Assembly: GCA_029858565.1 (NCBI GenBank)
Contig: JAOUEV010000003.1
Coordinates: 62,001-126,000, forward strand
Length of the DNA stretch: 64,000 bases
From: Nitrospirota bacterium
Lineage (GTDB): Bacteria > Nitrospirota > UBA9217
Reading direction: 5' to 3'
Part shown: positions 20,766 to 24,981 of the stretch, piece by piece
Numbering within the stretch: the stretch's first letter is position 1
How the letters are laid out: each line of letters opens with the position of its first letter
Program-made: the position numbers and the translations under genes
The notes under the pieces: model-generated
What the model saw: the letters and a program-made list of their open reading frames with translations, nothing else
Databases searched by the model: none
What the model was told of the DNA's origin: nothing

Positions 20766-21854
20766 ATGAATCCCATTCCCCGAAAAAAAACCCGTCAGAT
20801 CAGCGTAGGCCCGGTGAAGATCGGCTGGGGCGCGCCGGTGGTCGTGCAGTCCATGTGCAACACCGACACGCGCGATGCCGCTGCCACGATCGGTCAGATC
20901 AACCGGCTGCAGGCGGTCGGGTGCGAGCTTGTGCGGCTTGCGGTCCCTGATGAGGATGCTGCACGGACGCTCGGAAGGATCAAGCAGGGTACGACCATGC
21001 CGCTGATCGCGGACATTCACTTCAGCCATACGCTGGCTTTGGAAGCGATCAAGCAGGGCGTGGACGGGCTCAGGATCAATCCCGGGAACATCGGCGGCAA
21101 GGACAAAGTGAGCGAGGTCGTTGCAGCATGCAGGGACCGGAACATCCCGATCCGGATCGGCGTGAACGCGGGCTCGCTGGAAAAACATCTGCTCGAAAAA
21201 TACGGCCATCCCACGCCCGAGGCAATTGTTGAGAGCGCCTTCGGCCATATCCGCATCCTTGAAGAGCTTGATTATCAGAACATCAAGGTCTCGCTCAAGG
21301 CATCGGACGTGCTGACCACGGTTGAATCCTACCGGTTGTTCTCGAAACGATCCGATTATTCGGTGCATATCGGCATTTCCGAGGCAGGCACACTTCACTC
21401 GGGAACGATCAAGTCCAGTGTCGGTCTGGGCATTCTCCTGTCCGAAGGCATCGGCGACACCATGCGGGTATCGCTTACGGCCGATCCGGTCGAGGAGGTC
21501 CGCGTTGCTTACGAGATCCTGAAGTCACTCAGGATCCGGCAGCGGGGCGTGAACATCATCTCCTGCCCCACCTGCGGCAGGACGGAGATCGATATTATCG
21601 GCCTGGCCGAGACCGTGGAAAAGCGGCTCAGCCATATCACCGAACCGCTCACCGTGGCGGTAATGGGCTGCGTGGTGAACGGGCCGGGCGAAGCGCGCGA
21701 GGCCGACATCGGCATCGCCGGCGGCAAGGGAACCGGTCTCCTGTTCAAGCATGGGGAGATCGTGAAGAAGTTCGATGAGAAGGAACTGGCGGATGTGCTG
21801 GTGAGGGAAGTGGAAAAGATCGTGAGGGAGAAAGAATCGTCTCGTTGTGATTGA
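20766..21854 (+). CDS. ispG: 4-hydroxy-3-methylbut-2-enyl diphosphate synthase
   Basis: The 362-residue 4Fe-4S enzyme carries out the penultimate MEP-pathway step, reducing MEcPP to HMBPP. The N-terminal TIM-barrel half begins GPVKIGWGAPVVVQSMCNTDT. The cluster-binding C-terminal part has ISCPTCGRTEIDI and VMGCVVNGPGEA, giving the three cysteine ligands. It lacks the central insert of the plant and Bacteroidetes form. The start is six bases after rseP. The electron donor would be ferredoxin or flavodoxin. Confidence 0.97.
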   Translation: MNPIPRKKTRQISVGPVKIGWGAPVVVQSMCNTDTRDAAATIGQINRLQAVGCELVRLAVPDEDAARTLGRIKQGTTMPLIADIHFSHTLALEAIKQGVDGLRINPGNIGGKDKVSEVVAACRDRNIPIRIGVNAGSLEKHLLEKYGHPTPEAIVESAFGHIRILEELDYQNIKVSLKASDVLTTVESYRLFSKRSDYSVHIGISEAGTLHSGTIKSSVGLGILLSEGIGDTMRVSLTADPVEEVRVAYEILKSLRIRQRGVNIISCPTCGRTEIDIIGLAETVEKRLSHITEPLTVAVMGCVVNGPGEAREADIGIAGGKGTGLLFKHGEIVKKFDEKELADVLVREVEKIVREKESSRCD

Positions 21855-21886
21855 CAGGAATCGGGGCAACTCGGATAATAACTGCC

Positions 21887-22177
21887 ATGGGAATCGACGA
21901 ACTTATAAAAGATAAACGAACTGAAATCCTCCGCATCGCCGAGAAGCACGGTGCCTACAATGTCCGTATTTTCGGGTCAGTAGCCCGCGGCGAAGCAGGC
22001 CCTGCCAGCGACATTGACATCCTGGTCGAGGTGGGGCAAAAGCATTCGTCCTTTTTCCCCGGCGGTCTTGTCGCTGATCTCGAAGAGCTCCTCGGCCGGC
22101 GTGTGGATGTGGTCACCGTGAAGGGATTGAACAAGTTTCTCCGCGATCGGGTGCTGAGGGAGGCTGTGGCGCTTTGA
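21887..22177 (+). CDS. mntA: MntA-type minimal nucleotidyltransferase (antitoxin)
   Basis: The 96-residue protein has the minimal nucleotidyltransferase motif FGSVARGEAGPASDIDILVEV, a GSX10DXD pattern in which the metal-binding Asp residues are both present. MntA proteins adenylylate the partner HEPN RNase HepT and so neutralise it. The ATG at 21887 is chosen because it begins MGIDELIKDK, close to the family start; an upstream Met is possible. The partner gene directly behind is broken (see next entry), so this is an orphan antitoxin between ispG and proS. Confidence 0.85.
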   Translation: MGIDELIKDKRTEILRIAEKHGAYNVRIFGSVARGEAGPASDIDILVEVGQKHSSFFPGGLVADLEELLGRRVDVVTVKGLNKFLRDRVLREAVAL

Positions 22178-22378
22178 AGGACGATCGTATCTACCTTTAA
22201 ACTCAAACACCCTGAAATCGATTGGAGAAACATCTCGGGATTTCGCAACGTAGTAGTTCACGACTATCTCGGCATAGACGTTGAGCAAGTCTGGGATATT
22301 GTCGAACGTGATTTGCCGAAGCTGAATGCCGCGGTTAACGCAATGATCAGCGAATTAGGCGATCCTGCCACGAAGTAA
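22174..22378 (+). pseudogene. hepT: hepT remnant with an internal deletion
   Basis: The first codons, TTG at 22174 then KDDRIYL, match the start of a HEPN-domain RNase (HepT), and they hit a stop at 22198-22200. The C-terminal part resumes in another frame from about 22202 as KHPEIDWRNISGFRNV then VVHDYLGIDVEQVWDIVERD and ends at TAA 22376-22378. That piece holds the HEPN catalytic pattern RNVVVHDY. About 40-60 central residues are missing, so the toxin cannot fold as usual. The TTG overlaps the mntA stop, as in intact pairs. Confidence 0.8.
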
Positions 22379-22420: not shown

Positions 22421-24115
<1,695 letters not shown>

Positions 24116-24164: not shown

Positions 24165-24419
24165 ATGCAGGAGCAGGACCTAGCGAAGATCAGAGCAATC
24201 ATAGAAGAGCGGAACGTCCGTTATGCTCCCAAGGGAGGCAGCGTTACCCTTGCGGGTATCGAGGGCGGGACCGTGAAGATCGCGCCTGCGGGATTCTGCT
24301 GGCGGTGACATGTGACCCGTATAGCCCTGGTCGAGGGCTTGCAGGAAAAGTTGAAAAAGGAGTTTCCCTGGGTTGAACAGGTCATTGTGATCAACCTGGA
24401 TAAGACAAAAAAAGCTTGA
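24165..24419 (+). CDS. NifU-domain protein, predicted selenoprotein (CxxU)
   Basis: An 84-residue frame is obtained when the TGA at 24306-24308 is read as selenocysteine. Before it the sequence reads IRAIIEERNVRYAPKGGSVT and VKIAPAGFCWR. After it comes HVTRIALVEGLQEKLKKEF and WVEQVIVIN. This aligns with the NifU C-terminal domain, where IRP...GGDV..V is followed by G.C.GCP and then the helix ending IPEVKEV. The residue read through is position 48, exactly the second Cys of the CxxC; Cys45 is kept. NifU domains bind Fe-S clusters through those two residues. A hairpin 14 bases downstream fits a SECIS element. A shorter frame stopping at the TGA would end in the middle of the domain. Confidence 0.75.
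24306..24308 (+). other. In-frame TGA, predicted selenocysteine codon
   Basis: The TGA follows TGC TGG CGG, giving the sequence C-W-R-U. The frame stays open for another 36 codons with clear NifU-like residues, ending at a TGA at 24417-24419. A true stop or a recent nonsense mutation cannot be excluded from this one sequence. Confidence 0.7.
24323..24339 (+). promoter_or_regulatory. Predicted bacterial SECIS hairpin
   Basis: AGCCCT at 24323-24328 pairs perfectly with AGGGCT at 24334-24339 around the loop GGTCG. The loop begins 20 bases after the TGA and has G in its first two positions. By my recollection of the bacterial rules (loop 16-37 bases from UGA, a G in the first two loop bases) it qualifies. 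Its GGUC core is like the apical loop of the E. coli fdhF element. Confidence 0.7.
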
Positions 24420-24473: not shown

Positions 24474-24701
24474 ATGGACGAGTCTATCAAGATCTCGCTT
24501 ACGCCCCAGCAGAGCGCGGAGATCAAGAAACAGATCGGATTCGAACTTACCGAGATATACCTCACCAAACGTTCACTGAACAAGCTTCGTGTCTTCCGGC
24601 TGCGCCTGAGCGAGGAACAGCAGGAGCAGATCACCGAGGCTTGGGGTCAAAAGGTGAAAGAATTGACCGTGACCCGCTCAGTCGCCACCCGGATAATGTA
24701 A
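24474..24701 (+). CDS. Small conserved hypothetical protein, 75 residues
   Basis: I do not recognise a named family. The protein is short, mostly helical and charged: it starts MDESIKISLTPQQSAEIKKQ and ends TRSVATRIM, with an EEQQEQITEAWGQ segment. It has a strong ribosome-binding site (GGAGGG) 11 bases before the ATG. It lies 54 bases after the NifU-like gene and shares its strand, so it could be co-expressed. No cysteine or metal motif is present. Confidence 0.65.
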   Translation: MDESIKISLTPQQSAEIKKQIGFELTEIYLTKRSLNKLRVFRLRLSEEQQEQITEAWGQKVKELTVTRSVATRIM

Positions 24702-24780
24702 TTGAGAGAATGATCGCGCCGCGCAAGGGGCGCGCAGGTTTATTGTTGGTCCAGACCGAATGCGAAGGGAGGTGATTCCT

Positions 24781-24981
24781 GTGAAAAAGGCATTTTCGCT
24801 CCTGCTTTCATTGGTTATTGTTGCTACATTTGTCATGATCGGCTGTGAGAAGAAGCCCGAACCCCCGAAGCCGGCCCCGGCTCCGGCGGTAACGCCTCCT
24901 CCACCGCCCCCGGCTCCGGCACCTGCTCCGGCTCCCGCGCCGAAGCCTGCCCCGGCCCCCGCAAAACCGGCAAAGAAGTAG
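24781..24981 (+). CDS. Proline-rich lipoprotein
   Basis: A GTG start at 24781 follows GGAGGTGA at good spacing. The 66-residue product has a signal peptide with the lipobox VMIGC (lipidated Cys near residue 22). The rest is a low-complexity tail of Pro-Ala-Lys repeats (PAPAPAPAPKPAPAPA). Such tails extend from the membrane to span the periplasm. No enzymatic role can be inferred. A strong terminator follows. Confidence 0.75.
   Translation: MKKAFSLLLSLVIVATFVMIGCEKKPEPPKPAPAPAVTPPPPPPAPAPAPAPAPKPAPAPAKPAKK

Follow-up and report, generated by a model that had tools for sequence, protein, structure and literature searches.

The HesB-like selenoprotein is related to an A-type Fe-S cluster carrier. 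It (TIGR01911) is the nearest precedent in kind for the gene described here, but it belongs to a different family and its Sec motif is UxGP, not CxxU (PMC13188914). The CxxU motif itself is also found in the AhpD-like, SelW-like, HdrA and FrhD selenoproteins (PMC13188914), the folds of which are unrelated or which are multi-domain enzymes. The known domain that the present protein resembles is the C-terminal domain of NifU/Nfu (PF01106; E. coli NfuA, human NFU1, Arabidopsis CnfU): fold, length and the Gly-x-Cys-x-x-[Cys] core are shared. In NFU1 and NfuA, the CxxC motif holds a [4Fe-4S] cluster at the homodimer interface and its mutation abolishes function (PMC5014551).

The window, i.e., the whole stretch of 64,000 nucleotides that was analysed, contains a nifU-like gene at 24165..24419 (+ strand). 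It has 84 codons, starts with ATG at 24165 and ends with a TGA at 24417-24419 (+). Codon 48 (24306..24308, +) is also TGA. These coordinates agree with those of an earlier note, made from the sequence alone, which had proposed a frame of this length interrupted by a TGA at this codon. When Cys is set for the TGA residue, the read-through protein matches Pfam NifU (PF01106) across its full length with 38 bits, i.e., more than the gathering cut-off of 27 bits, and covers model positions 2-67, nearly all of the 67 positions of the profile. The 47 residues located 5' of the TGA, taken alone, reach 15.4 bits, which is lower than the cut-off. A stop-tolerant search of the source genome flags the same locus as NifU with one internal TGA. 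The locus is very probably a selenoprotein gene of an unlisted family, i.e., a single-domain NifU/Nfu-type protein in which CxxU (Cys45-Trp46-Arg47-Sec48, 24297..24308, +) replaces CxxC.

The family alignment was placed on the solved NifU and NFU1 domains (PDB) by profile alignment. The first Cys of CxxC corresponds to Cys45 and the second to the residue encoded by the TGA, as the earlier note had stated for the latter; in the new family the second Cys of ordinary NifU would thus be Sec. The residues that follow the motif differ as well: P-x-S..TL in ordinary NifU and H-x-T-R..LV in the new family. The AlphaFold model obtained from the 22-row alignment has the order helix-strand-strand-helix-strand (pLDDT 80, pTM 0.62). 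Its best structural matches are Arabidopsis CnfU (2z51, E=1e-4) and human NFU1 (2m5o, TM 0.74, rmsd 1.8). According to this model, which is of moderate confidence, the NifU fold appears to be retained in the family. In the tree, the 22 members form one group split from the 28 rows of ordinary NifU with a support of 100/99; the columns are few and the branches long, and only this split between the family and ordinary NifU is used. It must be added that the source genome also has an ordinary CxxC NifU, on another contig.

A protein search of 396 sampled Nitrospirota genomes gives 20 close relatives, each with one internal TGA, and the 20 carriers span 11 genera and 3 taxonomic families. With 2 more sequences, the family amounts to 22 orthologues, all of which match PF01106 at E <= 0.01. 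The profile made from these 22 members again picks out the 20 carriers, with scores of 114-139 bits, ordinary NifU remaining below 50 bits. TGA occupies the position of codon 48 in every orthologue, a constancy that chance would by no means produce; Cys, TAA and TAG are found in none. Besides the TGA column, Gly43, Cys45, His49, Thr51, Arg52, Leu55, Val56 and Trp69 are invariant in the alignment, and the stretch H-x-T-R..LV thus stands directly 3' of the TGA in all members. Conservation after the TGA in relatives had been set beforehand as a test: it is present, and no homologue of the family ends at the TGA.

In 85,462 species, the DNA was searched for G-[FY]-C-x-x-[TGA or TGY]-H-x-T-R-x-x-L-V. 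This pattern gives 19 records, i.e., 17 true orthologues (all Nitrospirota and all with TGA) and 2 chance matches, in an alphaproteobacterium (L061) and in a Vibrio (L062), which were discarded. The single match of the pattern in viral contigs is also due to chance and is not a NifU. No Cys form is found by this TGA/TGY scan, the pattern being blind to Cys forms with altered following residues, and none inside the family among the 396 Nitrospirota genomes (family-profile search). In the profile alignments, Cys at the Sec position is present in ordinary, distant NifU only. The earlier note had expected Cys at the TGA position in homologues: this is true for distant ordinary NifU, but the data searched hold no close Cys orthologue. 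Since every family member in the searched genomes has Sec and none has Cys, it is suggested that selenium matters for the role of the protein. The «internal TGA» seen at three other loci (L047, L053, L055) belongs to ordinary NifU, the alignment having overrun the terminal TGA; there is no recoding in these cases.

The published bSECIS model describes a loop of 3-9 nt, a stem of 4-16 bp, a G in the first two loop positions, a distance of 16-37 nt from the UGA and a MFE <= -7.5 kcal/mol (PMC13188914). The hairpin located at 24323..24339 (+) agrees with all these values: loop of 5 nt (GGUCG, 24329-24333), stem of 6 bp (24323-24328 with 24334-24339), GG at the beginning of the loop, 20 nt between UGA and loop, and -14.5 kcal/mol. 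The stem begins 14 nt 3' of the UGA. The stem, the loop and the spacing are those described in the earlier note, and its identification as a bacterial SECIS element is supported by the covariation of the hairpin and by its agreement with the model. Among the 22 orthologues, 87.9% of the pair cells are standard pairs, vs. 78.7+-1.9 in shuffles. Double-changed pair cells amount to 15, vs. 5.7+-1.7 in shuffles, and 0 of 500 shuffles is as high, although such counts are not probabilities since the orthologues share ancestry. The covariation score is 0.296 (0.162 in shuffles). When the partner is slid by one base, pairing, double changes and covariation all fall, i.e., the native register is the best one. 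Pair 20-32 is seen as C-G, A-U and G-C, and pair 18-34 as G-C, A-U and U-A. Synonymous positions within the stem do not vary: in all members the last base is C in codon 54 and G in codon 57, though the amino acids differ.

Several orthologues have one mismatch or a one-base register shift in the hairpin, and in some members a register with the four-base loop GGUC is seen by eye. G25-T26 of the loop would be conserved in any case, the invariant Val codon requiring these two bases. Folded as a single sequence, the 40-nt piece is only of moderate stability given its composition (z about -1.7). Shuffling of synonymous codons gives a mean z of -1.6; codon usage was taken from the same genes and the sequences are related, so this value supports the hairpin and does not prove it. 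Rfam gives no match to the hairpin at gathering or relaxed thresholds; the case for a SECIS element thus rests on the covariation and the published bSECIS constraints. GGUC is also found in the loop of the hairpin that follows the in-frame TGA of one selD of the source genome. The loop of E. coli fdhF is similar.

The earlier note had asked for selA, selB, selC and selD, and all four are present in the source genome: (i) tRNA-Sec (selC) is found with 64 bits (gathering 47) and has the anticodon loop CTTCAAA; (ii) selB is found with 389 bits (cut-off 242); (iii) a SelA-like ORF, identified by sight and not by profile search, directly adjoins selB; (iv) selD is present in two copies, both of which contain an in-frame TGA (G000:C3:2376-3290 and G000:C14:90529-91446). 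A selD with TGA is present in all 20 carriers. selB is found in 18 of the 20 carriers vs. 13 of the 27 genomes without the nifU-like selenoprotein gene. It is not found in carriers G001 and G216, both of which have selD with TGA. The assemblies of these two genomes consist of about 220 and 40 contigs, respectively, and the missing selB may thus be an assembly gap. With the SECIS hairpin as a guide, SelB and Sec-tRNA(Sec) would redirect the UGA of codon 48 and give a protein of 84 residues; this step is strongly supported. The product would hold Cys45 and Sec48 at the positions of the [4Fe-4S] ligands of NifU.

If the TGA were a real stop, the gene would be a pseudogene or would give a product of 47 residues, and the remainder of the frame would be decayed. 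TGA is indeed an ordinary stop here also, the nifU-like gene itself ending with it. On the contrary, pN/pS is 0.42 before the TGA and 0.42 after it, i.e., purifying selection at the protein level is equal on both sides, and the same TGA followed by the same invariant residues is found in 22 of 22 members. A real stop is therefore extremely improbable. The TGA could also be read as another amino acid, e.g., Trp or Cys by suppression, without SelB. Nothing specific speaks in favour of this reading, and several observations speak against it, i.e., the alignment of the position with a Cys ligand, the covarying hairpin 3' of the TGA, the presence of tRNA-Sec, selA, selB and selD, and the in-frame TGA of selD itself; it is highly improbable. 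From the conserved frame, the RNA hairpin and the Sec machinery, we infer that residue 48 is almost certainly Sec.

The role of such a protein is a different matter. The earlier note had proposed that Sec replaces a Cys of an Fe-S scaffold: this holds for the position of the residue, while Fe-S binding by so divergent a family is putative. The protein could be a working [4Fe-4S] carrier, with a single cluster shared by two subunits, each of which would supply its Cys45 and Sec48 as ligands. No orthologue departs from Gly43 or from the two ligand positions after it, the NifU fold is probably retained, and the CxxC of Nfu is essential and binds its [4Fe-4S] cluster between subunits (PMC5014551). 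However, H-x-T-R..LV stands where ordinary NifU has Pro and S/T-L after its second Cys, the family lies on a separate long branch and an ordinary NifU is kept in the same genome; this carrier has somewhat less than an even chance. A wider formulation, i.e., a carrier of a selenolate-ligated [4Fe-4S] cluster or of another metal, is likewise possible but not the favoured one. That the protein would be a natural Fe-S carrier with a [4Fe-4S] cluster partly held by selenolate, in Nitrospirota in which an all-cysteine NifU persists beside it, is put forward a little more tentatively still. Alternatively, the NifU fold could be reused for redox chemistry: Cys45 and Sec48 would form a selenenylsulphide in a reductase or a peroxidase, and His49 and Arg52 would tune the selenol. 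CxxU followed by His resembles redox motifs, H49, T51 and R52 are invariant, Cys45 and Sec48 lie around the N-terminus of a helix in the predicted structure, and a redox function is assumed for most selenoproteins (PMC13188914). Yet the positions of the cluster ligands are kept as well and there is no gene of a redox partner nearby. The chances of this redox use are somewhat better than even. Between a redox-active CxxU and a carrier with a selenolate-ligated cluster, the former is given a slight preference. Because of the altered surroundings of the motif (C-x-R-U-H-x-T-R for C-x-x-C-P-x-S) and of the long branch that separates the family from ordinary NifU, the sequences suggest that it has a distinct task next to that of the cell's ordinary NifU.

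NifU/PF01106 is absent from the May 2026 inventory of 119 prokaryotic selenoprotein families or subfamilies. In NCBIfam, no selenoprotein model is matched, and only distant NifU/NfuA equivalogs are found, far below their cut-offs. No description of a NifU-type selenoprotein is found in the open-access literature. With this gene, the known selenoproteins gain a family whose members routine annotation would cut short or overlook. Moreover, with Sec at a known Fe-S ligand position, the holding and passing of Fe-S clusters by a selenolate become testable with a protein of only 84 residues. A cluster held in this way would, if true, mean that selenium serves as a cluster ligand in Fe-S trafficking.

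Across the loci compared, there is neither a shared operon nor a conserved neighbour hinting at function. The gene upstream is proS (prolyl-tRNA synthetase, named by sight; 22421..24115, +) in the window's own family and a TIGR01212-like radical SAM gene (also by sight) in others. Since proS is adjacent only in part of the family, it is not a functional part of the nifU-like selenoprotein locus. The radical SAM gene, which reads as the TIGR01212/YhcC type, lies upstream in the same orientation at 8 of 17 loci (including L059, L060 and L067) and is directly adjacent in three. In several relatives (L066, L069, L070), the selenoprotein gene is followed directly by the gene of a conserved small protein of 75 residues without Pfam match (24474-24701, +, in the window). 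Next in the window comes a small predicted lipoprotein (24760-24981, +), the second half of which is almost a pure Pro-Ala repeat. On the other side, an MNT-like nucleotidyltransferase (PF01909) is encoded at 21851-22177 (+), and a shortened HepT/HEPN-like frame (...DWRNISGFRNVVVHDYLGIDVEQVWDIVERDLPKL...) is seen by eye after it, at about 22178-22377 (+). These two frames are perhaps a decayed HEPN-MNT toxin-antitoxin pair.
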